A stretch of DNA of 64,000 nt from contig CAMPDV010000014.1 of NCBI GenBank assembly GCA_946699065.1, forward strand, positions 434,001-498,000. The letters are read 5' to 3'. Source of the DNA: Loxodes magnus (Eukaryota > Ciliophora > Karyorelictea > Loxodida > Loxodidae). Positions 10,269 to 63,372 of this stretch are shown piece by piece (the stretch's first letter is position 1; each line of letters begins with the position of its first letter). Below the pieces are notes generated by a model. The model saw only the letters and a list, made by a program, of their open reading frames with translations. It ran no database searches and was not told where the DNA came from. Both the position numbers and the translations under genes were made by a program.

Positions 10269-10333
10269 TTAGCAGAAGACATTGATTTACTAGATATCTT
10301 TCATTACTAATTATAAGATATTTTTCACTTTCT

Positions 10334-10575: not shown

Positions 10576-10579
10576 ATTA

Positions 10580-11320: not shown

Positions 11321-11325
11321 AAAAA

Positions 11326-11398: not shown

Positions 11399-11399
11399 T

Positions 11400-35921: not shown

Positions 35922-38489
35922 ATGTCTTTTTTATTTGGATTATGGCAGGATAAAGAGACTTCCAGTGATCTTTAGTCTTTTAACATAAAAAGAAAACTAG
36001 AATAAGTCATTATTACTGTGCTCGCAATATCTTTAGTAAAAATCTTCATTTTATTATTGACTTCTGTTCTATATCAATAAAATTTAAATCTTGGAGAGCT
36101 AGTTATTCCTATCATAGATCTAACAATTCCTCTCGTCGCTCTTAAGCTTACTTAAAATTTGCAACTAATGAACTTTGCTTTTTTAATGGTAACTCTCTTG
36201 GAGTTTATGATAAACTGGGGCGAAAGAATAAATAGCCTTTTCATCATAAACATGTCGCTTTCGCCAATGATAACTCTTATCCTTAAAAACTCTTACCTTG
36301 AATAAATTTTTATTTGTTTCTTTTGATGCTGCTTTAATTTTGCCTTTTAGTAATTTAAAAACATTCAGAAAATAGAGAATTCAGAGAAATTTTCAGATAA
36401 TAACAAAAATATTTAAAAGATAGAATTTTCTGAGAATCTTCACTGAATTTAAGAAGATGAAGAAAATTTATTGATTCTATCAATATTACTAGTGACTATA
36501 GTTAGTGGTTTATATGAATATTGAATTAAAAGATGCTTATAATAAATAGAAAAAATATAATCACAGAACGAAGAAAATCTAAGGCAGAAAGATTCATTCT
36601 TTGCGGCTCAAATTCATGAGTTAAGAAATCCACTAAATTGTCTTCTTGGATCAATTGATATTCTTTAGATTTAATCTTCTTACTCTAATCATCAAAAGCA
36701 AATTCTTAAAAACGCGCAAAACTCAGGTGAAATTTTGCTCTGCATAGTAGGGAATATTTTAGAATTTTCCAAGTCTTCTATTAGTTAGTTCCAATCAACT
36801 TATGAACAAGTAGAAATAAGAAAAGTAATATGAAAAGTGTTTTCATGCTTTTAGCAAATAGCTGACAAAAAGAAACTTAATTTTGAGAATTAAGTAGACT
36901 CAAACGTACCAAAGACATTGCTACTTGATTAGACTAAGCTTATTCAAGTACTTATGAATATAATAGGTAACGCTATCAAGTTTACAATACGTGGATTTGT
37001 AATGATTCATGTGAAATGAATTCCTGATATTAATTCAATTTCCTAAGAAGATAAAGATAAGTAGTTATTAATAGAAGACTATTCTATTGAAGATATTTTC
37101 CAAAATTCACATAGTTCAGCTAATTAACTGGGAGAAGAAAATTACGAATCATCCGAACTCATTAGAAGCACCTAATTAGCTCCAAGAACTTAAAATTTAA
37201 AATGCTTCCGTGATTTGATTAGTGAAAATTCAAAAAATTCAGCAAAACTTAGGAAGAAAGCAAGTTGTAATATAGGGAAAAAAAATAATAGATACTGTCG
37301 AATAAAATCTTAAAACTTTGATGAGACTTCAAATGTTTATGCTTATTCATATGAAAAGCAAGGAAAATTAATTATTGAAGTAAAGGATACAGGAATAGGA
37401 ATTTCTAATGAAGATATCTAAAAACTCTTCAATCCCTTTTAGTAAGCAAATGAAAATATATAAAAGTAATTCAAAGGGACAGGACTTGGGCTTTGAATTT
37501 CAAGATAGATTCTTAAATAAATGCAAGGTGATATATAAGTATCAAGCTATTTAGGATTTGGTAGTGTCTTCACAGTCCACTTAAATTCATAAGTTTTTAA
37601 ATAAGAAAATGAAAAAATTTTATCTCCTCTAGTACTAAACAAATCTAAAAAACTCACTGATTAAATTTGGTCAGCAATTCTAGGAGATAAAGATTAAAGT
37701 AGTATAAGTGTTTTTCAAAGCAACTTTTAAAAAAACAAAATAAAAATCCAAGAAATTTAAATTCCAGAGTAAATAATTTAGCATTACAAGCAATAAAAAA
37801 GCTGCTGTTTAATAATTTTAGATTCAAATTATGATGGTAAAGATGGAATTTAAATAGCAGAAGAGTTAAGACAAATTTAAAAACAAAAAATAAAAGAAAA
37901 CTAAAGTTAAAATATGAAAGAAAACTTCCTTTATATTCTGATGATTAATTAAAACTCTATTGAGAAAGAAAGATTTTCGCTTCTTACAGATCAGATCGAT
38001 AAATTTATAATAAGACCTGTGAAATAATCGGAAATAAGGAATATTATTTAAATTGTTGAGCAGAAACTTAAAGAAATTTAAAATGTCAAGGCAGAAAAGT
38101 AATAAAAGTAAATTTTATTGATTGATGATGAACCTATGATAGTTCAATATTATTAAGAAGTACTAGATTTAATTGGAGTTAAAGGTTATTTAAAAGCTTA
38201 CAGTGGTAAAGAAGGATATGAGCTATTTACCTAAAACTCAGAAAATATTGAGCTAATAATTTTAGATTATGAAATGCCAATGGTTAACGGCATTGAATGC
38301 GCTAGATTAATTAGAGAATTTAGTAAAAAGAAACTAGATACTTATTTTTGTCCAATCTTGATTTGCTCTGGAAATGAAGGAAAAATCTATGAAGAACAAG
38401 CAAAAAGTGTTGATGCTTTATATGAAGTAAAGCCTTTAAAAGCCAAAAAAATAGAAGAAATTATTAAGACCTGCCATCTAATAGAATGA
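35922..38489 (+). CDS. Hybrid sensor histidine kinase with receiver domains, 855 aa
   Basis: ATG 35922 to TGA 38487-38489. About five membrane segments fill residues 30-145 and another precedes the kinase near 185-205. The H-box FFAAQIHELRNPLNCLLG has the phospho-accepting His at residue 232. The ATPase domain has an N-box (MNIIGNAIKF, Asn 350), a G1 box (VKDTGIGIS, Asp 489), an F-box (LFNPFQQ) and a G2 box (GTGLGLWISRQI). A Ser/Asn-rich insert separates the N and G1 boxes. A first receiver-like segment (about 620-715) keeps ILDSNYDGKDG but lacks the N-terminal acidic pair, so it is degenerate. The second is complete: LLIDDEP (Asp 735/736), LDYEMPMVNG (Asp 782), ICSG and the Lys-Pro at 837. 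TGA encodes Trp in GLWISR and elsewhere. It probably senses a signal at a membrane and starts a His-Asp phosphorelay. Confidence 0.92.
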
Positions 38490-40422
38490 GGTTTCTTAAT
38501 GACTATTTAAAAATTTATCGTTTATCATTTAATTTATCTAGTATTATTGGATAAATACTTGATTCCTATATATTAATTTAAACTTTCTACCTTAGCTTAT
38601 TAAAATAGAAAAGCATAAAGAATATTCTTTTTAATTCTAGAGAAAATGATTTGAATAAATAAAGCGTATCATATAAGTAAAAAACTAGTTTTTGATAAAA
38701 AGCATATTCAATATGTTTTAAAATACAATTGTTAAATTATCTTCAAATTAGTTTTATTTAAAAAAGTAAACTTCTATTTTTAATTTTTATTTATTCTTCT
38801 CTCAAATTACTAAATCTATCTATATTTCGTTTATTTAAACTAATTCATATATTATAATAATTCATATCAAATAGTGAGACTCTATGTTTAGTTTAAAAAA
38901 TTAGGTATTAAATTTTATCTTTTAAGACGTTAAACAGCCAAATCATTGTAAATTAAATATATAATTTGATTTAAGTGGAAAATATACGAATTTCTAACTA
39001 TATATATAAATAAATATTTGATCCTGGATACATATTAAAATCAGAACTTATATTAATTAATTAATTAACTAAAATTTAAAAATTAATAAATTAATATAAG
39101 TTCAAAGCTTTAAAAAGATTAAGAAAATAGTTATTTACATAAATAACTTAATTATAAACAAAACTTTGTTTAATATCGATATTAATATAATTCAATTAGA
39201 TATGTCTTATTAATTACTATTAAGCACATATTTTTAAAATAATTCGTTTAGGAAAAATTAAAAATATAAGGGCGAAAAATTAAAAAGTAATCAAATTAAA
39301 AAAGTTGTAAAAGAATTAAGAAAGTTCTTTAGATGCCAATAATTTTCACTTTTTATCTACAAAAAATTAAATTTAGATAAAAAAATTGAATCTTTTATAT
39401 AAATTAAAAGTTAATTATATTTAAGAAATATATAATTAAAATAAACTAATTTAACTAGTATTTGGCTACACCTAATTAAAAATTATTATTAATTTATAAA
39501 GAATAAATTAAAATATAATAGAATGTGTATTTAGTAAAGCTTAATAATTAAATATCAATATTAAGTAAACTTAATTTAAAATAAAAGAAATATATAAATC
39601 AAAAATTAGATTTAAATTAAGCTTAATAATTTATTAATGAAAAATTAAGAATAAAATAATTGAATCTTAAGAATATAAAATAAATAAAAATTAAATTACC
39701 TTTATGATAAAATTTTAAATCGAATAATTGAAATTCATCAAATTTATTATATTTAAATAGATAAATTTAATGGTTTTTAAAAATAAATAAATATTTAATA
39801 TAAAATAAATAAAAATAATAATTAGTAATTAATTTATTAAAGTTATTTATTTAAACTAATTATTAATTAAAGACTAAATATAATTAAATAAATATTTTAT
39901 ATTATATTATTATAAATCTTTATTTAGTTAGATTGAATGGAAGAAAAATATAAACATTTATAATGTTTTTAAATTATAATATAAGTCTTTTGAGAATATT
40001 TCCAAAATAATATTAAATTGAACATAAGTTTCTAGATAGATAAATATGACGAATTTTATCAAATAATTACATTTTTCATATTTAATTTCAAGATTTATCA
40101 TTTGCACTATAAACTGAAAAATTAATTTAATTTAATTTAAAAATATTTACTTAATTTAAAGTCATCACTAGATATAGACATATAGGTATTTTATATAGAT
40201 TGATAAATAGAATTATCTTCGGATTATTATTTAACTAAAACACCTTTATTAATTATAAAAAATAATAAAGTTAAAAATAAAGTTTATTTTTATTTTAAAT
40301 CTTCATGTTTACTTAGCAATATATTTTAGTAAGATAAATAACTATTTTAAATTTTAATTAATATCCTAATAGTTTAACTATTAAAACCTAACACTCAGCT
40401 TTTTTATTTAGAAAGCGTTATA
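38490..40422. other. AT-rich stretch, nothing recognised
   Basis: No motif or RNA gene seen between the 3' ends of the histidine kinase and the convergent Ser/Thr kinase. Confidence 0.5.
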
Positions 40423-42570
40423 TCAATTTTTTAATTTGGCTCTCTAAATTACTTTTCTTTTATTTTCCTAATAAGTTCTTGACTTTCATTTTACTTAGTA
40501 GCGTGATCTTTTGCAGTTTCGAAGGGTAGCGACAACTAATCTTTCGGTTGTAAATTTTATCCTATTAGATTTTTTGTTGAAGATTTTCCTTCGAAAAGCC
40601 TTTTGTATAAAATTTACAAATGTCCCTTTTTAGTTCTAAGCTATTAGATAATTTCTTGTTCTTTGTAACCTAAACGCATCTATAATAATTGAATAAATTA
40701 CTATTGTTTAGATTATTTCTATATCATAGTTTCTTTCTGCTTGATTTTCTGGAACACTTTAAAGATTATTTTTTATTAAGTTTTCTTAAACGACAAACTT
40801 TGAAATTGCTGGTTTTTTTAATTTTTCGAGATCAATTTTTTCAGTTAAGTCAGGCCTAACTAAAATTTCCTCTTCTATTGATTTTTAATCATTTTAATTA
40901 CTTAAAAGTAACTACTAGCTCCACTACTTATGCATTATTTGGTCTTTCTATATTTAAACTTGAGGTTAAGGAACTTGAAGCTAAGAAATTTTACTTTCAG
41001 TTGCTATAACTTCATTTTAAGTTTAATTAAGCAGCCAAAAATCTTGCAGGATTTAACTAGATGTCAAACGTTTATACGGGTTTACTACTATCAATTTTAA
41101 AATTAATTCCTTTGCGGCTTAACTTACATAAGGCGGAACAATGAATTATCCTTTCATAATTTTTTTGTATAAATCCTTGTCGTTTACTCCTTTGAAAGGA
41201 AAATGTCCACAAAGCATGGCAAATAAAACAACACCAGATGCTCATATATCAACAGGTGGACCACAGTACTCAGACTTGTTTACAATTTCAGGTGCCATAT
41301 AACTTGGAGTGCCACAAAAAATTTTCATCTTTTTGTTACTTGGCATGCAGGTGCTAAATCCAAAATCTATTATTTTTATATTTTTTTAATCGTCAAGCAA
41401 TAAGTTTTCCAGTTTTATATCTCTATGAGCTATATTTTTAGAATGAAGATAATTAATCCCTTCTATTATCTAAGTGAAAATTTTTCTGGCTTCTAATTCT
41501 TCAAGCTTTCTGCTTGCTTTTTTTTTGAGAAAACTATGCAAAGACATTCCACTCACGAATTCCATGATTAAATTAATTTGTTTTCCATTGTCTATGAACT
41601 CGTAAAGTTTGACTACGTTCTGATGTTCTAATTATTCCATTATTTTTATTTCTCTTCTAACTGCCTTCTTCCTTTAAGGGTTTAAAAGCTTATATTTCTC
41701 GTAAAACTTTATAGCTACTTTTTTATTAGTAGGTCTGAAAACTGCTAATTTTACTTACGCATAAGCTCCTTAGCCTACTTACTTTCCTATTATATAGTTA
41801 TCCATTGACCCAAGCTTAGTTTCGTTTGAAGTAGAAGCTTCTGGCGTTTCTGCATTTAGTAAATTTTATGTTTTTTAATTAGGAATCAATGGCTTAGCAT
41901 TTTAAACTATTTAATTCTTTTGTAGCGTCACGTCTACTGGAGTTCTTGGAGTAACTTTCTTGACTATTCTTTAAGAAGTAGGAATATTGCTTTTTTGAAA
42001 TATCTTATTAATTGGCTTAGGAATGTTTTTATAAGAGTTTTTAAGAATAGGGTTCTAGTACATTTTTCTATTTGGTGTTAAATTAACTTTAGCTACTGCT
42101 GTTTTGGGTTTTTCCTTTTAGCAATTTTCACTTTACATATTTTACTTTTTATCCTTATTGATTAAACCAGTTAATTTGCAAGCTCTATCTAATAGTTTCT
42201 TTCTCTATTCTAGGTAATTTTAATAGTTTGTCTAGGAGTTTTTTTATCATTCTAAAGATATCTTAGAGTAAGAGGAATCAGGATTAGGTGTTTATTCTCC
42301 AATATGAGTTGATTATATATTAGTAAAGTTAAGATTTTTGTCTTTAATTAATTTTTTGATAGGAGAAACAGACTAAGTATCTTGCTTGTGACTAGTATAA
42401 TTAGAAATGTTTATTAAACTATTATCTTCTTATATTTGTCTTTTGCTTGATCTTATAGGAGATATTACATGCTAATTATACTTATGCTCCATACCAGGAG
42501 TTGATGTGTTTAGCAGCAGTTTGAAATGCACTGTTTTAGCATTAGAAGCATTTTAGAATTAGCTCAGCAT
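40423..42570 (-). CDS. Ser/Thr protein kinase of the CAMK/AMPK-MARK type, 715 aa
   Basis: Minus strand from ATG 42570 (a later in-frame ATG is at 42492) to TGA 40423-40425. An earlier in-frame TGA near 40485 could also be the stop. A Lys/Asn-rich N-terminal region of about 254 residues precedes the kinase domain (about 255-515). The glycine loop is IGKQVGQGAYAQVKLA, then VAIKFYEK with the ATP-binding Lys, IAHRDIKLENLL with the catalytic Asp, IIDFGFST, then CGTPSYMAPEIV, VDIWASGVVLFAMLCG and an Arg in NPYKRLTSSQIL. All catalytic residues are present, so it should be active. The activation segment and subdomain IX resemble SNF1/AMPK/MARK kinases. The basic C-terminal tail of about 200 residues may be regulatory. 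Trp in VDIW is encoded by an ordinary codon; TGA-coded Trp occurs in the flanks. Confidence 0.9.
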
Positions 42571-44349
42571 TTTTATAGTTATTTAAGATCTTTGAAATTA
42601 ATAGCTTTGATATATAAAATGGAATTACCTGCTAAGCTATCTCCTCTTTATACTCTTTCTCTCTTCTTTAATCTAATCATCAGCACTATTTTTTGTGCTC
42701 AAACTAAGAAGGGAGTAAATTGACTAAATGGTAATAGCAGATAAATACCAAGCAAGTAAAGATTTGGAAAGAATAATTCACAATATATAGCAATATAAAT
42801 AATAATAAAGAAGCTTTTACACTAAGAAGGCTAATTTACTTATGGACTAAAAATAAAGCATAAGATATGTAAAAAAGCTTTAACTTCCTTAGTAAAACAA
42901 CTAAATCAAATATTTTAGCTGCTATATACTTTTAGCTTAGCTATTAAATAGAACAATAGCTATTTATTTCATTTAAAATCTACAAATTCTTGATATAAAT
43001 CAATAATTCCTGGAAAGTTTTATGTTCATTTTAGAAATTGAAGATATAGTGGAGATAGGTATAGAGTAGCTAAGATTCTTATATTTTTATAATTATCCTT
43101 TAATAGTTGCATATTAAGTTTTCATTTTTGCTACTTACTTAAATAAAAATATTTCATCAATGTAAATTTTAAATTTATGTATGTAATTTAGTGATGTAAC
43201 TAGCTTTAATTCTAAATACACTATTTTGGTTTTCCTCTAGGTTCTTTTTGATTAAAAACTTGCATTAAAAATTTGAAAAAGGAACTTAATTATAATAAAA
43301 CTGAAATGTAGTTATTAAATTTATTACATGGTTTTAGCTTCTATAGCAATAAATCATTTCTAATTATGTTCAGTTTAAAGTGATTAACTTATTATACTGT
43401 TTTTATTTATTTATATCTTTTAAAATGAAAGAGTTAGATAATAGCTTCTTGTATTACAACTTTTTTAACTAAATGTTGGGATTATTAGTTCCAGGCTAGT
43501 TGAATCTGAATGAATTTCTTGCCATCTTTTTCCTAAAATTTTAAGAAATTATATTATATTAAAGTATTGCTAGTGAAGTATTCAAAGCTAAGCATTTTAT
43601 TATATATAAACTTATGGCAATTCATGTAGCTTAAAATCTATAGTAAATTTAACTTTATCAATTCTAGATTAAATTTAAGTCCCTAATTTAAAAAAGCAAA
43701 GCAGGCTTATTAGCTATAAATACCTTAAAAATAGATTCTTCATAATGACCTTATAATTTCTCATCTCAACTATAATTATAGCTTTCTTTAAATATTGGGT
43801 GATATTAATATAAAACTAATAATAGTCGCATAAAGAGTTTAATATAAAATATTAGGATGCTAAAAGAAAGGACTTAATGTAAATTAGATTATAAGAATAA
43901 AGGATTATAAGTAGCTTAGTAATATTAGATATAGCTATTATTATAGTAGCCTGTTTCTTTAATTATTAAAGCTTAATTCATTATATATAGGATTTTTATT
44001 AAAGCTATACTAATATTAGCATCTAAGATATAATCTGTTTCATAAGGCTTCTTCATATTACATCATTTAATTTTAGATAAAGCTATCTAAATGACACCAA
44101 TCAATACATATTGTAAATATATGAGTAATTTAAAAAGGAATAATAGAGAGACTATAATAAATGTATGAAATAAGCTTAGGCAAGTATCTAATTATATAAA
44201 ACATATGTAAAGCTATACAAATCTATTTAAAATATAATAAAAGCTATTATATGCAAACACATTTTATGTGATTGGTCTACTCTTTTAGATTTGATGCCTA
44301 ATTTTAAATTATGTGGTATTAGTAAAAAGTTTAAACAATTATAAATTAA
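42571..44349. other. AT-rich intergenic stretch between divergent kinase and E1-like genes
   Basis: It must hold both promoters. The region 43430-43800 has somewhat higher complexity but no motif I can name on either strand. Confidence 0.45.
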
Positions 44350-47300
44350 ATGAATCTTCAATAAAATTAAGAGTCTTTTTGAAGCTAAATACATACTTAT
44401 GGTATTGAGACAACTTAAAAGCTTATGAAAATTGATGTTTTAATAAGTGGAATGAGAGGAATTGGATCGGAAATAGCTAAAAATTTGGTTTTATCAGGAC
44501 TTCATTCTGTTACGATTCATGATGATAGTTTAACTGAAATAAGAGATTTGGGAAGTAACTTCTTTCTTGCTGAATAAGATATAGGAATACCACGAGCTTA
44601 AGCTTGTTTAAGTAGATTAAGAGAATTAAATACTTTTGTTGAAGTGAAAGTAATTAAAGGTCCTCTAACAAGTGAATAAATTAAACAATTTTAAGCAGTT
44701 GTTTTAACAGAGACACATCTATAAGATATGATAAGATTAAATTAATTTGCCAGATAAAATAATATCAAATTTTTGGCTTGTGATGTTTGAGGTGTTACTG
44801 GATACATATTTGTAGATTTTGGAGATAAATTCCTGGTAGAAGATTAAAGTGATTAAGAAATTAAAAGATAATTCGTGTAAAATATTACTTAAGACAAGGA
44901 AGGAATTGTTTCTTTATCAGATGATTCCAAAAACAGTTTCGATTCAGGTGATCATGTAAAATTTTCCGAAGTTTAAGGTATGGAAGAACTTAATTATGAG
45001 AAACCAAGATAAATCAAAAAGATAAGTTGCTTTTAAGTTTCCATAGGTGATACTTCAAATTTTCATCCGTACATCAGAGGAGGAATTATTGAATAAGTCA
45101 AAATTCCAGAAATAATTACTTTCTCGTGCTTAGAAGAAAAAATAGACAACCTAGATAACTTTGGATTTATTTTGCCTCCTGATACTTCTAAGTTAGGTTA
45201 ATCTGAGTAGCTTCATTTTGCATTTTAAGCTTTATGAGCTTTTAAATAGGAAAAAGGCAGACTACCTGGTTTAAATAATAAAGAGGAAGCTTTAGCAGTT
45301 TTGAATTTAGCAATAAATATAAATGAAAGCTAAAAGGCAAAATAAAAATAGTTTGTTCAAAGTATATAAGAAAATATTATCCTTCAAACTGCTTTATTCA
45401 GCTAAGCACATATCTCACCAATTACTTCTCTTTTTGGAGGAATTTGCGCTCAAGAGATATTAAAATTAACGGGAAAGTTTACAACTTTAAAACAGTGACT
45501 TCATTTAGACTTTTTCGAGCTTTTGCCTTAAGCGATAGTTAATAGATAATTATAAGGATGTCGTTATGACGATTATATAGCGATATTTGGGTAAGAATCT
45601 TTATCTAAAATTTAAAATTCCAAAATTTTTTAAATAGGATCTGGCTCACTTGGCTGTGAAATTTTAAAAGGTTTCTCTCTATTAGGACTTGGGAGTGGTT
45701 CATTAGGTAAAATAATTTTAGCAGACCCTCAACTTATCAAACCCCACAATATAAATAGCTCAATATTCTTTAGAAAAGATTTTTTATTAACTTCTAAGTC
45801 CTAAACTGCTGTTGAAGCTATAAAACGGCAAAATAAGACATTAAATGTAGAATGAATGCAAGAAAAAATTAGTTCCTTAAATGAAAAAGCATTTAATGAT
45901 TAATTCTGAGACTAGCTAGATTTAGTAATAAGCTCTATTTGAAGCAACAATGATATAATAAGCATTGATTAAAAATTAACTTGATACCTAAAACCTTTCA
46001 TTACAGCAAAAGCTTAAGGAGTAAAATGTGATGTCCAAACAGTTGTTCCTTATGAAACTATCAATATTAGCAATATAGAAGCAAATGAATAACTCGACTT
46101 TTTCTACAAATATAGAAATTTTATATTTTAGACTGATTAGAGCTTATTGTATGCAAAGCATGAATATGAGAATAATTTTTTTGAGCTTTGCCAAAACTTA
46201 CAATAATATTTGCAAAACCCTTAGCTCTATTTTTAGAGTCTTTAAATGGAACCTAACTATAAAATCGAAAAATTACGAAGATTTCTATAATTTTTGCAAA
46301 TAAAGCAAATCGGAAATTATGAATCTTGCCTAAATGAGTCAAGGCAATTATTTTAAACTTTCTTTTATGAAAAAATTAAGTAAATTCAACTTTAATTACC
46401 CTATGACTTTAAAAACTAAAATGGCGAATGATTTTGAACTGGAATCAAGAGATTTCCTCAAATTATTTAATTTGATGCTAATAACTAGCTTCACTTGAAA
46501 TTCATTATCTCTGCAGCTAATTTATTTTCCTAAATTTTTGATATTCCTATTATTGAAAATTTAGAAGTTGTAAAGGTAATTTTACAAGAGATTCAACTAG
46601 AATAGAAGAAGCCTATTGAAATAAGAGAATTAAGTAAAGAAGAATAGCAAGTTATAATATAAGACTTATGGCTTTAAATAAGATAGATTGATCTTTCGTT
46701 ATTTAGAGACATAAAGGCTGAAGTAAATCTAGATAAAATATAGAATTCTAACGATAAGATTAACTTCATTTGATCTTTTACTAATTTAAGTGCTTAAAAC
46801 TATTAAATTTAGCAAGAAGAAGAATTTAATATAAAGAAGCATATCTGAAATTCTACACCTATAACTATAGCAACCGCATCTGTAGGAGCAGGAGCTTCTT
46901 TAATAGAAATGTTAAAAATATTGCAAAATTAAATTGCTGGAAGCTATAAAAATTATTATCTCAACCTTTCTCTTTCCAGTTTTATATTTTCTTAGCCAGC
47001 TATTCCATTAAGATAAACATACAAGGAATGAGATCCAATAATGATGGCTCCAAATAAAGCTTACCCCGATAATTTCACTGTTTGAGACTAAATAATAGTT
47101 AAAGGGCCACTAACAATTTAAGAGTTTTAAGAATATTTCGAGCTAAAGCATAGAATATAGATATAATTCATTTTATGCTAAAAAATTCTAATTTACAGTG
47201 ATGTAATTAGAAATAGTATTCAGCTTTTAGACAAGTAAGTCCATGAAATCTATTATCAAAAAAGTAAATAAGTGTAAAACCCTGAAGAGACTTATTTACA

Positions 47301-47382
47301 GCTAGATATTTAAGGAGTATGCATGCAAGACTAAATAGATGTGTAATTACCTCTGATCAAGTATTTCTTTAAATAGAATTGA
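44350..47382 (+). CDS. UBA1-like ubiquitin-activating-enzyme homolog with catalytic residues lost, 1010 aa
   Basis: ATG 44350 (MNLQQNQESFWSQIHTYG matches the start of UBA1) to TGA 47380-47382. The 1010 aa compare with about 1020-1060 in typical UBA1, and the frame is continuous. The inactive adenylation half (VLISGMRGIGSEIAKNLVLSG), the active half (residue 430 onward, IGSGSLGCEILKGF) and a C-terminal ubiquitin-fold-like end are all present. Key positions differ. The catalytic Cys aligns with Tyr 586 (46105-46107, within FFYKYRNF versus CTLKNF), the conserved Asp of ALDNVD is a TGA-coded Trp at 531, and the Arg of NLNRQF is Ser at 470. Asp 459, the Asn pair and Lys 483 remain. TGA encodes a conserved Trp in KQWLHLD (45496-45498). 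It is probably unable to form a thioester, so is likely a pseudoenzyme paralog. A second, active UBA1 should exist elsewhere. Confidence 0.88.
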
Positions 47383-47620
47383 GATGCTAACTAATTTCAA
47401 AACTCATGATACAATACTTTATATAATTAAGATTAGGCATTATCATATAAAACGATTCTTATTATTTACTCAACTTTTAGCTTTTATTCATTAAAGAAAA
47501 AGGTTAATAAGGAAGATTCTCTAAAGCTAAACATAAAGCACTATTAATAATTATAATTTACTTAAATGATTTGAGTAAAATAATAATAGCAAGCTAATAA
47601 TAATTGGTTTAATACTTTAA

Positions 47621-48670
47621 ATGTTAGTAATATATTAATATAAGTGTAGTCATCTTTAATAGATATTGGATATCATTCCAATCTTTAATAATTTGATATA
47701 TAGCTAACTAAATATCTTTTGAAGCTTTTTTTCAAGTTGGTTTTCTTTTATATCCCTAATTAATAATTTAATGATAATTGAATATTAAGTCTTTGTATTG
47801 AAAAATTAGCAAAAACTAACTAACCAAATTTCATTTATTTCAAATCTCAGTATAAAAGATATTAATTATAGAGAAAACTATTTTTGGTAAGTTTCTAGTT
47901 CGTGTGCATTTGAGTTTGAGTTTGAATAAAATCTAGAATAAAAGATAAAAATTAAATAATCTAAGAATGATCTTCAACTAATAAACATATAACTCTAACT
48001 TAAATAAATAAAGGTATCTAATTATAATATTAGCGGATAAACTTATTTAAAATACAAGGGATATTGCTAAGATTCATATTATTTTATAATAGCTTATACA
48101 TTTAAAGCTAATAAGCTTTATATTAATATCTTAGAATTATTTAAATAAGAATATAATAGTAGATAAGAGATTGGTGCTATTACATTTAATATTTGATATA
48201 TTTTTAACTTATATGAATATAATTTAAACTATTGGAAGACAAACTAAATGATTAATGCTTATTTTATTTCATATGAACATCCCAAAATAAATAAATAGAA
48301 TAATAATAATTGTTTATTTAGATTTGAAGAAGAATTAGAGATTTAAATAAATTATCTGAAATACCTAGTCCATATATTTTAGAAATTAGTAAGTTAGAAT
48401 TAATAAAAGAAATATCGAACTATATTTAAAAAGTTGTCGTTGGAGCTTTTCATTTTAGCTTATAAAAATCTAAAAATTCTTCAAATGCTAATTTTAGTGA
48501 AGTTAGATATTTAAAGAAATTAATTTTTAAACCTATAAACTTTAGAGAGATAAATAACTTAATATAGTTCAAACTTTTATTATAGTTCATCTAAGTAAAT
48601 TATAAAAAGATTAATAAGCATAAGTCAAAGTTAAAAAAGAAATGATAGAATAATATAAAATAGTTGCTGA
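47621..48670 (+). CDS. Unknown protein, 349 aa
   Basis: The frame was traced back from a convincing central part to ATG 47621 and forward to TGA 48668-48670. The N-terminal third is hydrophobic and aromatic (around NIFWSFFSSWFSFISLI). The middle has SSSCAFEFEFEQNLEQK, and later parts include GYCQDSYYFIIAYTFKANKL and AYFISYEHPKINK, which read like real protein rather than random A/T sequence. No family recognised. It starts 240 bases after the E1-like gene on the same strand and ends 45 bases before the convergent adenylate kinase stop, so the two transcripts must end in a very short shared region. Confidence 0.5.
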
Positions 48671-48715
48671 ATATTTAATTATTATCACTTATCTGTTTTA
48701 AATTTATATCCAACT

Positions 48716-49393
<678 letters not shown>

Positions 49394-49419
49394 TTTTAAT
49401 TAAGAATCTTCTTTAGTAG

Positions 49420-50382
49420 ACTGTATAAGTGATTTTAAGCCATTAATTAAAAAAGATAAAATACAGGCAATCTAGTTAATAGCAAGCAAACATTAGCTGA
49501 ATAAAATTAGTTCTAATTAGCTTTGGAACTTCAAAAATAATAAAGAATGCTCTATATTATCATGCTACTCACTTAGCTGTCATTTATTATGATAAATTTT
49601 ATATTAATCAAGCTAATGATAACTATAAGCATTTCTTAATTTTAACTTTTTATTCTTAATACGAAATTTAAATTAACATCACTAAGGAAATTCTTATTAA
49701 AGGATTTAGGCAATAATTAAATAAATAAGAAAGCTAAATAAAATCACTAATGGAAAATAAATTTAATGGTATAATAACCATACTTAATATCTTAAACAAA
49801 TAGCATCAAAATTTGATAAGTTTGCTCTATTTCTAAAAATTAATAACAATTTTTAAGGTTTATGATTTAATAGGTAGTATATTTATTAGACTAAAAAGTA
49901 GAAATTATATCTTTTTAACAATTTAGTAAAGCACCACTTAAATAGTTTCTTTATCAATTAAATAAATTTATAACTAATATATTAAAAATATGATTCTTTA
50001 AAATTTAGAATTTATAAGATTGATGATTGTGATAAAGCTGAAAGAGCAAGCATTCTTATAAAGCTTTTTAATTATTTCTCTGTTAATTTAACTATTTTAA
50101 GCTTTATTAATTTCTTTTTATTAGATGCTACAATTTAAATGATTAAAGATATCTAATTATATTAAAATTTAGAAGCTTTTATATAAGATATTTATAAGTG
50201 CTTTATTATTATTAATTATTTTCCATTTTATAAACTTATTTTAATTGTATAAATCTGGCATACTCTATTCCTTTAAATTATTAAAGCCTTTAGGAAATTT
50301 AATTATTATTAATTTATCTTCTTTATCTTCTTTATCTTTTTTACTATTTTATCAATTTTAGTTTTTAATTACTATTATTTGA
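49420..50382 (+). CDS. Cyclin-like protein, 5' end unresolved
   Basis: The plus-strand frame resembles a cyclin box. ISWIKLVLISFG (with Trp from TGA at 49498-49500) matches the R-x-L-x-x-W helix. HATHLAVIYYDKFY matches the LAV-x-x-x-DRF helix. HFLILTFYSQYEIQ matches the LA-x-KYEE helix, and IKSLMENKFNGIITILNI the mE-x-x-iL helix. A hydrophobic helical part follows, ending at TGA 50380-50382. No in-frame ATG exists between the divergent adenylate kinase start (49393) and 49750, so the real start may be upstream through an intron, non-ATG, or lost. The cyclin assignment rests on pattern only; a partner kinase is not predicted. Confidence 0.45.
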
Positions 50383-51560
50383 TTTATAAACTCCTTTTAC
50401 CTTTTAGTATTAAATTATTTTTAGTCTTTAAATTAATTAAAGTTTTAACCTTTTATAATTATAACTTCTGAATTTCTTCTTTAAATCAATCTCTTATAAT
50501 TTATAATTAAAGAATTGTAAACTTTAATATAGCTATTATCAATTAGATTTTAAAGCTTTTTATTAAAGTTTTTTGAACTTATAAAAAGAAATAATTCAAA
50601 TTTGCTCATATTCTATTTATAATCTTTGAAGCATATTAGTTTTATTATTTAAGAGAAAAATACCTTAATTTTTCAAAATAATACTTGGTTAGATATTGTC
50701 TTTCTTAAAATATTTCAGCCTTAAATCTTCATTTTATAATTAAGTTTACTAATAATTACATCTATAAACTAGCTTTTTATTTTAAAAGAGGATAAATTAA
50801 CTATAGCTAAAAATCAAAAAAGAGTTATTAATTATTTGCTTCAAATATATCAATTTGCATAGTGGCTGAATTATAATAATCCTTTATATAGAAAATAAAA
50901 ATAATAGAAGACATATATATATCCCCTATATTAGCAAAACAAAGGTAACTAAGTAGTTATAAAATTCCTTTTATACTATATTGTAAAACAACTTAGATAC
51001 TTAAAGTTTAGTTAATAAGAGTAAATACATTTAAATTAGACCATTTTGCATTAAACTGATAATAATTTCTCTATTTTTAAAATTTAACTAATAATTAAAT
51101 AAGTTATTTATTGTTTTATTTATTGTGTATATCTTTATTATTTCTAGTTATAGAAGTATTTCTAAGTCTGCTTCATTTAAAACTTACATCTTAGTTGTCA
51201 TATTGTCCTTTTTATTAAAGCATATGTAATTATATTGCTTTATAGCCTTACTTAATAATAAACTCTAAGAGGAAATTATTTTAGTGAGTCAATATAGTTT
51301 TTATGCAATTTTAAATTTTAAGATTTAATTATAAGCAATTTTGTAATTTTAGGAATATCTAAGTATATTTAAAATAATAATAATCAGGCTATTTATTATA
51401 TTTGCTGTTATTTAAAAGAAATTGCTAATTATACAATAACTGAGTCTTTTAGATTTATAAGTGCTTAAAATTAATTAATTTATTTATTTTAATAGTCTTT
51501 TGGATGTATTGATGAATTTAATTTTAAAAGTAAATTTAAATACTTCTTAATATATTATAA
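50383..51560. other. AT-rich stretch, nothing recognised
   Basis: No family motif seen between the cyclin-like frame and tRNA-Phe. Confidence 0.45.
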
Positions 51561-51566
51561 TTAACT

Positions 51567-51639
51567 GCCGAAATAGCTCAGTTGGGAGAGCGTTAGACTG
51601 AAGATCTAAAGGTCCCCGGTTCAATCCCGGGTTTCGGCA
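51567..51639 (+). tRNA. tRNA-Phe (anticodon GAA), second copy
   Basis: The same 73 bases as the gene at 11326-11398, here on the plus strand. The cloverleaf is complete, the anticodon loop is CTGAAGA and the discriminator is A. A TTTTT run at 51640-51644 is a likely Pol III terminator. Flanking sequences of the two copies are unrelated apart from A/T richness and the terminators. Confidence 0.95.
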
Positions 51640-51644
51640 TTTTT

Positions 51645-53149
51645 ATAATATTTAATTAAAATAATGGTTTGAAATAACCTAATATATTAGATTTTAAGTC
51701 TATTTTTCCATTTAATCAAATTTTACCTTTTTACCTTACAACTAACAATTTTTGTTTTTCTTAGACTAGCAAGAAATAAGGAATTTCAGTTTAAGGTTTA
51801 TCAATTTCAGAATTTGTATTTTTGATACGAAATATTGCATAAATCTTCATAAATATAATTAAAAAAATTAAATTGAAAACATGATTTATAATCCTGCTTA
51901 TCTAAATATTTATTATTTATTAGGCTTATGCAAAATAGATAGATAACTACTTAATTTAAATTAAATTAAATTAAAATTATAAATTTTTAATAAGTTAGAA
52001 TAAAGTTAATGCTATAATAATCTATTTCAAAACTTTTAGTTAAATCTCATTTTTTTAATTAATATAAGTTATAGCCATATAAACGTATTTTTATATAATT
52101 AAATTTTAAGAAGAGTATTAATATTATAAGCGCTAACTTCTATTTTACTTATAATTTCATTATTATTTTTCATTTGTATTTGAAGCTAGTCCCTAAAATT
52201 ATAAAACTTATTTCATTCAAGTTATCTAATTATTTAAGAACTAAATCAGCATAATAAGTTATATAATTTAAATAACATATTCCCTCATTTATTTAATGTT
52301 TTATATAATAAAAACCTAGAAATTTGATAGCAGCCTATTATTTATTTTAGCATTATAACAATCATTCATATCTTCCTAATATAATTTTAATTATCAAGCT
52401 AAATTTTATTTTCCTAAGATATGATTTATATGATTATTTAATCTAATTAAGTAATTAGTGATTTATAGATCTTAAATTACTCTTAAATTTATAATCATTT
52501 TACTTTGCTCATATTTATACTCTTTTGAATGAAATTTTTTATTTTTAATTGAGTTATTAATGCTCCCTTTTATAAGGTAAATCCTTAACTAATATAGGTT
52601 ATTTGCTTAGTCTTTTTAATTTTATTTAAGATTTTATTAATTTAATCTACCTAATAATTGAGTAGTCAAAGCAAAGGCATTATACTTAGCCTAATTGATA
52701 AATTTGTAATTAAATAGAAAGAAGCTGCTTAAAATGATATTTCTTTTAATTTTAAAAGATAAATAAATTTATCTAAATTTTTATATTTGCTTGGCCTATT
52801 TAAAAATAACTAAACAAAAACTATAAACAAATTATTTTAAAATTGTAAGAGATTCAAATATTAAAGTGGGAAATATCATATGCTTAGTCAATGCGCTAAT
52901 GATATTTTATACCTATTTTTATTTATAACCCTTAAATTTTATATAATTAAGAGTATAAGATATTATGCTGCCTAACTAATATGTTAATTTATATCATATA
53001 GAAAATGTTTATATTGCTAAGAAGTTAGTTAAATGAAGTTAGCTTAAGTCAAATAAATATACTTAAAGCTATGCAAACTAAGCAAGTGTAAATAATTTAA
53101 TTGAGGGTATAAATATCCCTATTTTTAAGGAATTTAGGAATATTTAATA
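51645..53149. other. AT-rich stretch, nothing recognised
   Basis: Intergenic A/T sequence upstream of the choline-kinase-like gene, with no motif seen. Confidence 0.5.
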
Positions 53150-54133
53150 ATGGCTTATATGGATTCTTAGTAGATTAAAGAAACTATAAGCACTTGTTTG
53201 CCTGATTTTGGCGAAATTACTGAAATTATTCCTTAGCATTGCCATACAAATAAAGTATATAAAGTTACAAATTCCTTAGGATAAAGTATATGCTTTAGAG
53301 AGTTTGGAACAAATAACTTAGTTGATCTTGAAGTAGAAAAATAAATTTTCAAAGAGTTGCAAAAATATGGCTATACCAAAATTCTTTTCTAAACTGATAA
53401 GTTCAGAGCTGAAGAATGGCTAAACGGTTCTCAACCTAAAAGAGAAGAATAAAAGGATCCAGAAATTATAAAGTAATTAGCTGAAGGTCTAAAAAGAATT
53501 CATGACTACGAATTATCTTCTATATGTAAGCCAGATTAGTTTATATGGCTCTTGGAGAAATGGATTGAAATTGTTAAAAACAAATACTAAGGCAGTTTTG
53601 TTTCAAATCTTAGCTAAGAGAATTAGCAAAAAGTAGCGACTATTTTAACCCTATGCTAACAAGAGACAAAATAGCAGTTGCTAGATAAATTATATAGCAA
53701 TAACCCATAAATAAAATTTACACATTTAGATTGCAGATATACTAATTTGCTTTGGGATTCTGAGAAAAGGAAACTACATATTATAGATTTTGAATATGGA
53801 GGATATAGTATTCCCTATTTAGATTTAGGAGATATTTTCCAAGAGCCAGGCTTTGATTATAAGTATGATTAATATCCTCATTTTCGCTTTGTTCAAGAGG
53901 ATGCATTTACAGAACAAGATTAACAAGAATTTCTTAAAATTTATGAGCCAGATGAGTAAAGAAGAAATGAAATATAAAAAATGATTCCAGTTTATAAGGC
54001 AGCAGTCAATTATTTAGGTTCTCTCTGGTCTGCAATTACTTTTCAAGGAGAAAATACATATAAATTTGATTTTCTTGCATACGCTATTCTAAGATATGAT
54101 CTCTATGTAAAAAACATGAGTCAAGTAATCTAA
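53150..54133 (+). CDS. Choline/ethanolamine-kinase-like phosphotransferase, 327 aa
   Basis: ATG 53150; the family-like sequence ends at about 54130. The N-lobe has FGEITEIIPQHCHTNKVYKV and ICFREFG in place of the usual VLVRIYG-type strand. The Brenner motif is FTHLDCRYTNLLW, with the catalytic Asp at residue 194 and Asn at 199. The metal-binding motif is IIDFEYGGYSIPYLDLGDIFQE, as in choline and ethanolamine kinases. The C-terminus has NYLGSLWSAI and Tyr-rich helices. It should phosphorylate choline, ethanolamine or a similar alcohol using ATP. Unusually, every Trp uses TGG and there is no in-frame TGA until 54428. The end is therefore placed at TAA 54131-54133, which begins a cluster (TAA at 54131, 54137, 54143, 54155). 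Elsewhere in this same gene TAA is Gln. Confidence 0.85.
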
Positions 54134-54159: not shown

Positions 54160-56337
54160 ATTGAAATTGATTATACGTTATTTTAAACTAAATATTAAGC
54201 TATTAATCATAAGATTAAATCATATTCATATAAATCCTAATTTAAATATGTCTAAATTAATTTTAAACAATTAATATTTAGCATCATTCAATAAAATGAT
54301 ATAACCATTCAGATAAATTAAATAAATTAAATATTTACTATTATAAGTTTTAAGATGGTTAAGACAAAGGTATTAAGTTTGGATTATTTTAAATACCCAG
54401 CGTAAGCTTTATAAAGTTATGATAATTTGAAAGATAAACCTTTATAGAATAAAAAAATTTAACTTTTATACATTTTTAAATATAAGTCCCCAACTTTATC
54501 TATAAACTTAATTAATTCTCAACAAAGAAATTGAATCCGTTATGAGCAATAAATCCATTAAATTTAATTAAATAAAAATCTAAAATTAAATTAAATCTCT
54601 CTAATTTCATTTTAAGATTTATATGTATCTATTATTTTTTAAAATTGATCTTCTCTAAAAATATAATTATTTATAACTAAATCTGGTATAGACTTTATTA
54701 ATAAGCTTGAAAAAACTTTTCAGTTATTATAAAAATCTAATTTTATTATAAATTTTGGAAGATAATATAAAATTAAAATTATGGCTAAACTTTCAGCTAA
54801 TAATAACTATTTAAAGAAAAATCTCGTTTATCTAAAATTTTATTTGGTTACTTCTGAAAAAATTTAAAAGATTTTAGAGTTTTATTCAAAATTTAGCAAT
54901 AGTGATTTTTCAAGAACCATAGGAATCAGTAATTAAAGTTAGAAAAATATTTGAAGAATTAATATCTTAAAAGAGATTTAGCTGATATTTTTTATTTTAA
55001 GATATTAATAAAAAATCTTATTCCTCTATTTGTTAAATACAATCATTTAAATTTTTAAGATATAATGAAAATAAATAAATATAACAAAGTTCTAAGATTA
55101 AGAAGAAGCACTAATTATAATTTATTTTTAATTATTATGCAATATATTTATTAAATTATTTATTACAATTACAAGAAACTTAGACTATTAAAGTTTTTTA
55201 ATACTCTAGACTTCTTTATTAAATTATAAAATTCAAGTTATTAGTTGCCAAAGTCCGAAAAAGTCTTTTATATTAAAATAAAATAAGTCATAATATGTTA
55301 TTATTAGAAATATCTATCTAATGAAATTTAGAAACAAGTTAAGGTTATTTGAATCAACTTAGTGTAAATGGTCTTTGATTTAGTTAAATAAATGTATATC
55401 TATTATTTATTTTAAAGAGGATTCATTGATTCATTGATTCAAAATTTGTTTTTCTTATTTGAATTTAAATTTTTAATAATATAAATATGAACTCAAAATG
55501 ATTTAGATATTTGATAAATTTCGTTAAAAATTAAAAATTATCTTGACTTTTATTATTAATTTTTAATTTTAAAATTATATTATCTTCGAATTTTTAAACT
55601 TATTAATAATAAATTTTATTTTTATTTACAATTTTTTTAATATCAATTTTTAAACTATTATTTATGAATTTTTTTAATTTGGCATGGAAAAAACAATAAA
55701 TATTTTAAGATTCAATTTTAAATAGCATAAATCTAGGCTTTTTTATTTCTTTAATTTTTATAACTTTAAGGTCTATTTATTTTTTATAGGTCTTCTAAAG
55801 GTTTTTAAATCAAATAATTATTAGATTTTTCTTATTTTTTAAAATGATAATATTTAACTCTAAAGCATCTATGCTTTTAAAAAAAATTATTATTCTAAAC
55901 ATTACTAAATAACTTATTATTTATTGCAAATAAATTATTCTGAAAAAAATTATTTTTAATTTAATTATTTAAAGTTAATTATACAATATTAGAAAATTAA
56001 AAGATAACAGTCTTTAATTATTTTTTAAACTATCTAAATATAAATATTTCTCTTAATCTTATCATTTTTAAATATTCATTTTTATTTTTATTTTTTTTAT
56101 TCAAAGATAAATTGAACTCTTTAAAATATCTTTAGTAAATTTTAGTTAAAATTTCCTCATTATTAACTAATATTATAAAAAATAAAGTTTTTTAATTAAA
56201 AATAAATAGATGTAATTACATTAAAGTATTAAATATTTTTATAATAATTATATTCATTAGCAACTATAAATATTTTAAATTAACAACTATAAAAAGATAC
56301 CTTTATTATCTTATATCTAAGATTAATTTTAATTCTG
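54160..56337. other. AT-rich stretch, nothing recognised
   Basis: Low-complexity A/T sequence up to the abrupt inner boundary of the right repeat arm. Confidence 0.5.
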
Positions 56338-59300
56338 TATACTTTCTCCCTCAATTAATAATATGAATAGTTATTAAAATATAAAAGGAAATAAAGATAC
56401 AAATATTAAATAATTAAGTTTATTTATATTTTTCTTTATTATGATTAAAGCATAATTTATTATAATTAATTCCTTTTGCTCATTTGCTATACTAAGAAAT
56501 TGTCAAACATACTTAATAAAAAGAATTAAGTTCTACATTAAAATATAAATAGATAAACTGATATAGATAAATGTAATATATTTAAAACTTAAGCTTTCTA
56601 ATAATTTACCTAATAGAGTGTGTGAATAATATAATATATTATAATTTAAAAATTTATTAAATTAAAGAAAGATATTTGAATGTTATCAGCAAGGAGTTCT
56701 CTTCCTCTCTTTAGTTTTTTTCCAGTATTTCCAACTCTTTTATAGAATAAAAAATATAAAGATAAGATTATAATAAGTTGAGGAATAACTTTCGATGGAA
56801 GTTATAGTTTATTTACTTTTATTTTGTGCTGATAAATTAATGCAAAACATTAAAATTGTTATAAGACAAACAGTCAGAACTAAAGTTCTATACACTATTC
56901 TAATTTTCCTTATATAATTTTCCTAAAAGGCATAGTTCTTTTGTTTTAATCCTTTTATATAAAAGATAGTTACTAGGCACATCATGGAAGCTCAAATCGT
57001 ATCTAGAGTTCCAATAATTACAAAGAATCATTCAAGATGTTCACTCATAAATTTAAAGTATTTTCAAGAGCAATCAGTAAAGTCATAAAGAATTAAAGGA
57101 GCCAAATGAAATACAAACTAGAAAGAAAAAACCTAGTTAAGTACAAATATTCATATTCTAAATATATTGCTCTTTAGTCCTCTATTTCATTTATATACTA
57201 GCAGTCCTAGTTTTATTAGAAAAGCACAAATATAGAGTATTATAAAGACTGATGTCATAGAATCCTGCAAATAATACTTCTGTCTCTCTTTATTATCACA
57301 TTTAGTTTTCTAGTGATTCTATAATAGTTCAGGGGCATAAACAGCTGAAAAAATAAGGATAAATATATCAACAATAAGCATTATCAGTTTAATCTTATCA
57401 AAATATTTTTGTTATGGTTACTTATTTTCTTGCTGTTGTATGAAACCACTATAACCTTCAATTAAAGGTAGAATAGTTTTAGGCTTTTATTTTTTTATAG
57501 TTTCCTACGTTTCTTAACTTTCTCTAATATTCAGATTATAATTTTCTAGACTTAGTAATTAACCTTGCTCTTATATATCTGATTCCATTAAGTTTAGCTA
57601 ATTTATACAAGCAATTTAATATTTTATTTATTTCAAGCTTAAGTCATACAAAGATTATAAAATTAGTTTTAAACTTCCCTATAGCACTAAATTAAAAGAA
57701 AGGCTTATAACTCATTTAAATTTATTGATTCTAATAAAAACTTAAATTTAAACATTTTATATTCAGAACCTTTAATTATGTTTGCTATTTTCAGATATAA
57801 TTTAATATAGTTATTAATTATTAAAAATGCTTACTTTAATATTTTAAAATTATAAACTTTAATATTTGGTTTATTTGATAAGAGTTAGGCTATTTTTATA
57901 ATAAAATTTCCTTTTTATTATATTTACTTATGAAATCAATTTTATTCTTTAGTCTATATGATATGTTTAATTTAATTTGTATGATATTTGATAAAACTTT
58001 ATATATAATACACACTTATTAAAGTGGAGTATTAATAACAACTAATTTATAGAAATTTATTGATTATATTATAGAATTTATAACTAAGACAAAACAGCAA
58101 ACAGAAATAAGAATATCACATAAAAATGAATGGTTTATATAATAAAAATATTTAGCAATATAATTTAATTTCCTTCTATTAGTATCTTGATGATATTCAA
58201 CTTTATTTATATATTTCTTATTTTATTTAATATATTTAACATTCTATTAAAATAACTTTTATTTAATAATAAATTTACCTACCTTTTTAGATAAATAGTT
58301 TATCTAAGAGATTTTATATTTAAATGTATTAAATATTTGGAATATATTATCTTACTAAAACTATCTATTTGTTATTATTTATTCATAAACTTGTTTATAA
58401 ATATTATAATTATTTGATAGTTGTTTTATAATTTAAGAAATATGTATATAGACATTTTCATAACTTATATATCCTTTAAATTTAATTATTCTTAATAAAA
58501 ATAAAACTTATAATCAATCATAGTAGCTCTATGTTATTTTTAGTAACTTTTCTTTATTTTTTATTTTTTCAAAGAAATTGATAGTTAGCCTCTTTGATTT
58601 TATTGTTTAAACAAAACTAAAAATATTTCTTCAAAATAGAATCTTGCAAGCAATTTATGTTTAAACTTATATTGTACTTCTAATTTTTCAAAGCTATTAT
58701 TATTATCTATTCAAGGTAAAAATTTTAAAATACTTTATTAGTAGGCATTTCCTCTGAAAAGCCCAATATAAGAAGATATGAAATAAAAGTTTAAACTATC
58801 TAAATAAACATTTAGTTTATTTATTTTAAAAATTAGCCAAGTTATTAAATAAAAGGCTTAGAATGATTTAAATTGACATATATAGATTTTATCTTAATAG
58901 ATTTAAATATTTTAATAATTTAGTATGTTTTATAAAAATTACTTATTTATATTTTTAATTAATTATTTTATTTATTTTTATTTATTTTCTATTTAATTCT
59001 CTTACTAAAACATTTCTTTTATTTTTTTAGTTTAATTAAAAGTTAAAGGATGTAAAATTAACTTTTTAGCTTTACTAGAAAATATAAATGAAACCTTATA
59101 ATTATTGGTAGCATAGACAAATTATATAAAATTAAAAAAGATTTAATTCTTTTAAATTTAAATAGTAAACTTAAAAGCTTTCTATTTTATATAATATAAA
59201 CTTCAATCTTTTCTAATATATCTATATGCTTTATTATTAACCAATTATTAAAAGCTATCAATCCAGCTTCATCATTTATAATATTTTTAAAACTTTGTTT

Positions 59301-61920: not shown

Positions 61921-61964
61921 TTTAAACTATAAGAATTGTATGTAAATAAATTAATTAATTAAAA

Positions 61965-62372
61965 TGGTTATAGAGCGCGTAGCACCTCATTGATGCGCAG
62001 CTCTTTCAATATTAATATTTAATATTAAGAAATTTTCTCATGTTTCTTGGTAAATTTCTAGAAGCTCAATGATTCATGTCAGCTTCTCCAAATGGGGAAT
62101 CTTCTTATTAAAAATTATTCTAAAATCTTGAGTCAAATGCTTCAGTCTTCTTGAATAAGGTCCAAATAAGAGGTAGTTATTAAGTCGGTAATTAGAAGGC
62201 CCGTCAGTCAAACTTTCATACTACTAGAGAGAACCCTCGGGGTAAGTTAGGTATGTCACAACGGATCTTATCCACTCTTCCCCGTGGAGGCATCTAGTGC
62301 GATATTACTCGCAATGCAGCATACACTACACCAGATTACCTACTAGTTTTTCTGACGCGGCCGACATCCATT
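61965..62372 (-). ncRNA. Structured RNA-like block, copy B, family unknown
   Basis: Homolog of the block at 8455-8862. The inner helix here is one base pair longer (fwd 62277-62284 against 62238-62246, CGGGGAAG with CTTACCCCG): an extra G is matched by an extra C, a compensatory change. The outer helix UAUGCUGC/GUAGUAUG keeps pairing through GU pairs where copy A has Watson-Crick pairs. The 3' hairpin starting GAAAGAGC is conserved. The block has its own ATG-led open frame, but copy A disrupts it with one-base indels, so I take that frame as chance. It lies 40-odd bases outside the repeat arm. Confidence 0.5.
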
Positions 62373-62640
62373 TTATATAATATTATAATAAAATTTATAA
62401 TCTAAACATCTTTCAAACTTTAATATCTCCCATCAAAAATAAAATTTTTGATAATTTTTAGGAGAAATTTAAAATGCTTTTGGCGTTATAATTTAAAAGT
62501 AAAATCAAGAGGCAATAAGAAACTATTATAATATAATTATATTTAAATCAAATCTAAGTAAAGTTATAGGACATATTCCTTATAGTAAATTTATATTATA
62601 TATTTAAAGCAAAATTAGTATATAATAATAATTATTATTA
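62373..62640. other. AT-rich spacer
   Basis: Separates structured block B from the ORF1-like gene, mirroring the arrangement at 7678-8454. Confidence 0.4.
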
Positions 62641-63372
62641 TTAATTTACGTGATTCACCATTATTTGGTTAATCACAAATCAATAGTTTAATGTTAAATG
62701 AAAGAAACTTCATATTTGCTTGGATCATGTTTATCATAAGTCCTAAGTATTTTTAATTTGTTTTTTCTGAGACTTTACGATAGGTCGATTCCCATTCATT
62801 TCTTATTGAATTCGTTAATTACATGCTGCTTATTTGGAGCTTCTTTGTATAGTTGGAGTATTTTTTTTTAATAAAGTAAACCTTCACTTGTGCAGTATAG
62901 TCAAAATGTGTCTTACCGTTTATTTTATATTAATATCTTTTATTTTTATTAAATTGACAACAATTTCTTACCTTATGTCCTGAACGCTTGCAATATCATA
63001 TATCATTATTTTCCTATAGGGAATATATTTTGTTACAGACTGTTATTCAATTTCCATTTAGTAATTTCGTATTTAGGATTGCTCTGACTTAAATATTCTC
63101 GAGTTTTAAATTTCTCTTACTATTTGTTCTGTCTGTAAAATTCTACCCTAAATTTGTTGCAAGTAAAGGTTTAGAGCTAATTCCTATCGTAGTGTTGAAT
63201 TTTCTGATTTTAGAATTTCCATAGAGTTTAATAATTCATTAGTTCTTGATAAGATCTTTAATAAAATTTACTAATTCTTAATTCTCTATCTAAGAAGGCA
63301 GAGATCATTGGCTTCAATATGCTAAGTGTTATTTGATTTTGCTGTGGAATACTTTTATTTCTTAGGTGCCAT
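62640..63372 (-). mobile_element. LINE ORF1-like gene with coiled coil and zinc knuckle, truncated or frameshifted
   Basis: Minus strand from ATG 63372 (MAPKKQKYSTAKSNN). A Gln/Glu/Leu coiled coil of about 110 residues follows (for example NELLNSMEILKSENSTLRQE). Then, one frame over, comes a CCHC-type knuckle, IWYCKRSGHKVRNC (62947-62990), in which the first Cys position is Ile. The same second frame continues to MKFLSFNIK near 62690, which resembles the start of a LINE endonuclease (SFN-x-x-GL). It then fades into A/T sequence at about 62640. The layout fits ORF1 plus the first residues of ORF2, so this is probably an incomplete LINE copy, but the knuckle with a missing ligand makes the family call tentative. 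Confidence 0.5.

Follow-up and report, generated by a model that had tools for sequence, protein, structure and literature searches.

The karyorelict ciliates Loxodes and Parduczia use a genetic code (NCBI table 27) in which UAA and UAG encode Gln and UGA serves both as Trp and as stop codon. This code is stated for Loxodes magnus itself, whose macronuclear assembly comprises 706 Mbp (PMC11441545; papers are cited by PMC number, on the basis of excerpts). Here we analysed 64,000 nucleotides of L. magnus DNA (GCA_946699065.1, contig CAMPDV010000014.1, positions 434,001 to 498,000 of the forward strand), hereafter called the window. The original prediction for it, made from the letters alone, was that all three stop codons are read as sense and that TGA is both Trp and stop, as in karyorelicts and in Condylostoma. 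Among the features tested we found no difference from the karyorelict code. The likeness to Condylostoma (table 28) is less close: there, too, all 64 codons can be sense and termination is tied to the transcript end (PMC4967479), but UAA and UAG are also stops, whereas the gene ends that could be placed in the window (three of five genes) are at TGA.

Loxodes has also been named among the bearers of a tRNA-Trp(CCA) with an anticodon stem of only 4 bp (PMC13092985 and PMC12005148, both citing Swart and colleagues). Blastocrithidia differs in that UAR encodes Glu rather than Gln and that its eRF1 carries Ser70Gly, as far as described in the excerpts, in place of Ser70Ala plus other changes in Loxodes. 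The code is real, was correctly read from the sequence and is already known for Loxodes. In the following we present how codon meanings, gene ends, tRNA genes and eRF1 of this genome bear on it.

Codon meanings inside genes

The window has a GC content of about 20% and contains no standard-code open reading frame of at least 150 amino acids. A codon-usage scan delineated 11 coding-like segments, five of which matched Pfam families when TAA and TAG were translated as Gln and TGA as Trp: a hybrid histidine kinase, a MARK/SNF1-like protein kinase, a ubiquitin-activating enzyme (E1), an adenylate kinase and a choline kinase (Table 1). The same five genes matched solved structures with X placed at every stop codon (for E1 against PDB 6dc6 at 8e-155), such that the family assignments hold irrespective of the residues chosen for stop codons. 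At least six family-supported genes had been predicted. The sixth, a cyclin-like gene with the motif ISwIK (w denotes TGA; 49492-49506, + strand), was not borne out, since searches at E ≤ 0.1 yielded no Pfam match on the + strand (three frames of 49300-52800) or on the - strand (three frames of 49500-52900). No family above cut-off, only weaker matches, was found for 1-4500 on both strands, for 6200-9100, 38400-40300 and 42600-44300 on the + strand, and for 6000-10900 and 61700-64000 on the - strand.

In all five genes TAA and TAG occur in frame throughout. A Blepharisma-type code, in which UGA alone is reassigned to Trp and UAR codons remain stops, would agree with TGA reading as Trp; Blepharisma, too, is reported to have the 4-bp tRNA-Trp stem (PMC13092985). 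It is, however, already excluded by the TAA and TAG codons within the conserved domains of all five genes, which read as Gln, and conflicts with the presence of tRNAs with UUA and CUA anticodons (see below), so that we give it practically no weight.

To assign residues we tabulated 3,114 aligned cells of the five genes against solved structures, with X at stop codons. Of four alignments per gene, one was used for protein kinase and choline kinase and two for each of the other three genes; the E1 alignments were entered without their last rows and one adenylate-kinase alignment without its last row, and of 7p8e domain 2 the first block alone was entered. Gln scored best at both TAA (154 cells) and TAG (49 cells), Trp at TGA (34 cells). 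In a control, 45 of the 51 sense codons represented by 8 or more cells ranked their own residue first. Trp faced TGA in a relative at four positions only: 46435 (Trp in both structures compared), 41244 (Trp), 45496 (Trp and Phe) and 45907 (Phe and Trp). The predicted TGA codons in KQwLHLD, FPVwDFY (48818-48838, - strand) and GLGLwIS (37482-37502, + strand) were located as claimed. That such codons fall at conserved Trp positions held for 46435 and 41244 and in part for 45496 and 45907; it did not hold for FPVw, which lies opposite Ile, or for the G2 box of the histidine kinase, opposite Ser or Val. Taken by themselves, the outside relatives would therefore suggest only weakly that TGA encodes Trp.

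Codons were also compared with those of paralogues within the genome (assembly of 705,730,643 bases in 7,843 contigs, G000). An E1 paralogue (L002) shares 45.6% identity with the E1 of the window over 981 aligned codons. It contains 9 TGG codons in this alignment, 7 of which lie opposite one of the 15 TGA codons of the window gene (hypergeometric P 1.3e-12). At three of the seven positions (44788, 45235 and 45982) neither human nor yeast E1 has Trp, and these thus seem to be lineage-specific Trp residues. Of 108 TAA and TAG codons in this pair, 15 face Lys, 15 TAA or TAG, 12 Gln and 11 Glu.

For the protein kinase we compared 36 rows, i.e. the top-ranked 35 of 136 scored kinase matches plus the window's own. 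The DxW column comprised 24 TGG, 10 TGA and 2 TAT codons. Over the columns that hold TGA, Trp made up on average 0.613 of the other sense codons, 81.5 times its background, and beside TAA and TAG the strongest enrichment was that of Gln (5.6-fold and 7.1-fold, respectively). The TGG row of this enrichment table is uninformative, as rows with the identical codon were dropped. At the G2 box of the histidine kinase the window has TGA where 7 of 7 paralogues fetched have TGG. These paralogues were loci cut from 150 scored places; several are near-identical copies on contig C164 and the seven thus represent fewer independent cases. At the TAA and TAG positions of the window gene in this stretch, 33 of 56 paralogue cells were TAA or TAG and 15 were CAA or CAG. 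The adenylate-kinase paralogues were too divergent for a comparison at FPVw. The histidine kinase of the window has an ATPase domain whose relatives form an expanded family in the genome (150 scored places), with many copies on single contigs such as C164, C137 and C86.

Several observations weigh against these assignments. In the outside tabulation the net score of Trp at TGA was -9, and several TGA codons lay opposite Arg, His, Asp, Pro or Gly. Eight of the 15 TGA codons of the window E1 have no TGG opposite in L002. At TAA and TAG the raw counts in L002 show Lys as frequently as Gln, and in the kinase columns Lys and Glu outnumber Gln. Finally, regarding gene ends, unless an intron is assumed the choline kinase runs on for about 100 codons without an in-frame TGA. 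The comparisons within the genome (E1 paralogue, protein kinases, histidine kinases) nevertheless make the reading of TGA as Trp firm. UAA and UAG as Gln and UGA as Trp inside genes, i.e. both sense assignments of the karyorelict code, are present. In the window TAA and TAG act as Gln and TGA as Trp, as had been predicted and as codon tabulation and paralogue exchanges confirm; TGA probably also acts as stop, as predicted (see below).

One may ask whether decayed genes, or stop codons that are intronic or edited away, could mimic this picture under a more ordinary code. Introns in Loxodes are very short, mostly ≤25 bp (PMC11441545), such that single in-frame codons could be intronic. Between paralogues, however, TGG takes the place of TGA and CAR that of TAR, which makes pseudogenes or removed introns hard to invoke. 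Moreover, human E1 is matched in a single frame over query residues 59-1055, at least one stop codon is present in 135 of the 136 scored kinase matches, which yet reach 225-267 bits, and the eRF1 gene itself has TAA and TAG along its length. We regard such an explanation as hardly credible.

Where the genes end

Three genes have a TGA shortly after homology ceases: 5 codons beyond the final homologous residue in E1, 6 in the adenylate kinase and 8 in the histidine kinase. For E1 the last residue aligned with human UBA1 is 2 residues short of the end of that chain. The prediction that the same genes end at TGA is therefore likely to hold for three of the five, while the choline kinase needs an assumed intron. 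The additional claim that the terminal TGA is often followed by a second stop-type codon was not confirmed, as this was the directly next codon in none of the three genes. A further stop-type codon lies within 4-7 codons of the terminal TGA in each of them, which carries little meaning at 20% GC. For L. magnus a median 3' untranslated region of 41 bp and a depletion of UGA and UAA over about 20 codons upstream of the stop are reported (PMC11441545).

The choline kinase allows two readings of its end. The first in-frame stop-type codon after the domain is TAA (54131-54133). Together with the long stretch lacking TGA, this would agree with a Condylostoma-type code, in which UAA and UAG are ordinary stops besides UGA. 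A minority of UAA stops in karyorelicts, reportedly noted by Seah et al. in 2022, would point in the same direction. Alternatively, removal of the putative 19-nt intron brings TGA-Asn-TGA into frame and would supply the gene with a TGA end. Since L. magnus introns average 19.3 bp (PMC11441545), the intron reading is likely. The Condylostoma-type code further has to contend with three genes in which homology is followed by TGA within 5-8 codons and with the published L. magnus code, in which UGA is the only stop (PMC11441545). We thus consider it very improbable and retain UGA as the probable regular stop codon of this genome.

tRNA genes and eRF1

The genome was searched for tRNA genes by pattern; a general tRNA search had scored 63 of 42,786 first-look candidates. 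The pattern for tRNA-Trp(CCA) gave 238 matches compared to 111 in a reversed control. Two forms dominate, one with A27.C43 (52 loci) and one with U27.C43 (72 loci). In the ARAGORN drawings of the fetched loci both forms are unpaired at the top of the anticodon stem, leaving a 4-bp stem. The 27-43 pair is absent in 124 of 126 tRNA-Trp(CCA) loci found by pattern, a count that would miss divergent forms outside the patterns. In the remaining two loci (contig C110) U27 pairs with A43, giving a 5-bp stem. Their Rfam scores of 60.4 and 59.6 bits, against 58.2 bits for the array form, show no obvious decay. Another Trp-like pattern match (L092) was not a tRNA.

The U.C form seems to have the same bases as given for Amoebophrya and Condylostoma (PMC12005148); PMC13092985 writes the open pair as 26C.42U. 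Loxodes differs from the other systems with a 4-bp stem in having two open forms (A.C and U.C) in arrays plus two loci with a paired 5-bp stem.

A search for tRNAs with UUA, CUA and UCA anticodons had been suggested as a check of the predicted code. Patterns for the first two yielded 251 matches against 0 in the control, and the codon tests suggest that these tRNAs carry Gln. For the UCA anticodon the result was negative, with 18 matches in the whole genome against 16 for the reversed pattern; the sole match examined individually (L093) was no tRNA according to ARAGORN.

On contigs C67, C148, C214, C130, C78, C103 and C158 (e.g. L063-L065, L068, L110 and L111) tRNA genes are repeated head to tail, separated by short spacers. 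The array period is about 187 nt (C67) and 241 nt (C148) for tRNA-Trp, about 275 and 588 nt for the UUA and CUA tRNAs (C214, C130), and 527 or about 1,752 nt for tRNA-Lys, which is partly paired with tRNA-Ala. Within the window, two tRNA-Phe(GAA) genes are located on opposite strands within inverted 133-nt copies (11312-11444 and 51521-51653, 81% complementary). In the main text of the L. magnus genome paper (PMC11441545) the word 'tRNA' never occurs.

The eRF1 gene (L004) matches human eRF1 at 8e-159. Changes in eRF1 had been named as a further check of the predicted code, and five codon-recognition positions are altered: Glu55 to Ala, Thr58 to Arg, Ser60 to Gln, Ser70 to Ala and Tyr125 to Phe. 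All five are named among the stop-recognition motifs (PMC12153298). The four internal Trp codons of L004 are TGG. Two related eRF1-type genes lie about 35 kb apart (G000:C196:19713-20081, L004, and 54613-54981, L005), and the residue comparison covers L004. The top match to PF03463 (L003) resembles Pelota by eye and not eRF1. A literature search for eRF1 S70A together with UGA found nothing. Likewise, the two Loxodes tRNA-Trp forms, their copy numbers and the eRF1 changes were not found described in the excerpts surveyed; we do not claim them as new.

Features of the window and a likely mechanism for UGA

The features that carry the argument are collected in Table 1. Apart from these, the segment 6462-7622 is strongly coding-like with up to 39% GC and gave no Pfam match with E ≤ 0.001 in the three + frames. 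A 24-nt tandem repeat (10334-10587, 10.5 copies, 96% match) lies within the coding-like segment 9899-10573 on the - strand and could encode an 8-residue repeat. Furthermore, 23077-28429 and 56331-61681 are inverted copies of a sequence of about 5.35 kb, in pieces that are about 86-99% complementary, the longest being 2,343 nt at 99%. They probably represent a mobile element; no Pfam family above cut-off was found in the six frames of 23100-28050.

Table 1. Positions of genes, codons and the putative intron discussed in the text (window coordinates).
Feature	Position	Strand	Evidence
Hybrid histidine kinase, HisKA to receiver domain	36588..38489	+	Pfam HisKA, HATPase_c, Response_reg
TGA in histidine-kinase G2 box	37494-37496	+	TGG in 7/7 paralogues fetched
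Likely histidine-kinase stop TGA	38487-38489	+	just past end of homology
MARK/SNF1-like protein kinase domain	41026..41811	-	Pfam PF00069 2.3e-75; PDB 2hak
TGA at kinase DxW position	41244-41242	-	opposite Trp in structure; 36-kinase column
Ubiquitin-activating enzyme E1 gene, first homologous residue to TGA 47380-47382	44371..47382	+	Pfam ThiF, UBA_E1_SCCH, E1_FCCH, E1_4HB, E1_UFD
In-frame TGA read as Trp, KQWLHLD of E1	45496..45498	+	Trp in 6dc6, Phe in 6nya; TGG in L002
In-frame TGA read as Trp, E1	46435..46437	+	Trp in both structures; TGG in L002
Likely E1 stop TGA	47380..47382	+	fifth codon beyond alignment to human UBA1
Adenylate kinase gene, likely stop TGA 48718-48716	48716..49393	-	Pfam PF00406 1.5e-46; PDB 2rgx 9.2e-51
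Choline/ethanolamine kinase domain; TAA and TAG in frame	53243..54106	+	Pfam PF01633 3.5e-34; PDB 2cko 1.9e-15
Putative 19-nt GT-AG intron at choline-kinase end	54107..54125	+	read from sequence; starts directly after Pfam domain

The codon meanings, the structures of the tRNA genes, the eRF1 sequence and, in three genes, a TGA close to where the end is expected were observed directly. There is little doubt in our view that the window derives from the macronucleus of the karyorelict L. magnus and uses NCBI code 27, with a mechanism based on a short-stem tRNA-Trp and an altered eRF1. In this mechanism UAA and UAG would be decoded as Gln by the tRNAs with UUA and CUA anticodons. Inside genes UGA would be read as Trp, mainly by the tRNA-Trp(CCA) with unpaired 27-43, whose anticodon stem is one pair short. 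UGA would also act as the regular stop, recognised by an eRF1 that is altered at its codon-recognition positions and may release at UGA only. Nearness to the 3' end of the mRNA would decide between stop and Trp, a dependence that has been put forward in PMC4967479 and PMC11441545.

A more specific version is conceivable, although we consider it rather doubtful: the two loci with a 5-bp stem might serve UGG alone, and the 124 array loci with an open pair might make Trp the default for UGA. With an eRF1 lacking Glu55, Ser70 and Tyr125, termination at UGA would then be weak by itself and depend on the mRNA 3' end, and a measurable balance between tRNA gene dosage and eRF1 would set stop versus sense.

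Since the code and the tRNA have already been published for Loxodes, this analysis adds paralogue-based proof, a count of the tRNA-Trp forms and the altered positions in eRF1; with these the mechanism becomes easier to test. Such a code, with no codon reserved for termination and one serving as both sense and stop, shows that termination can depend on the position within the mRNA.

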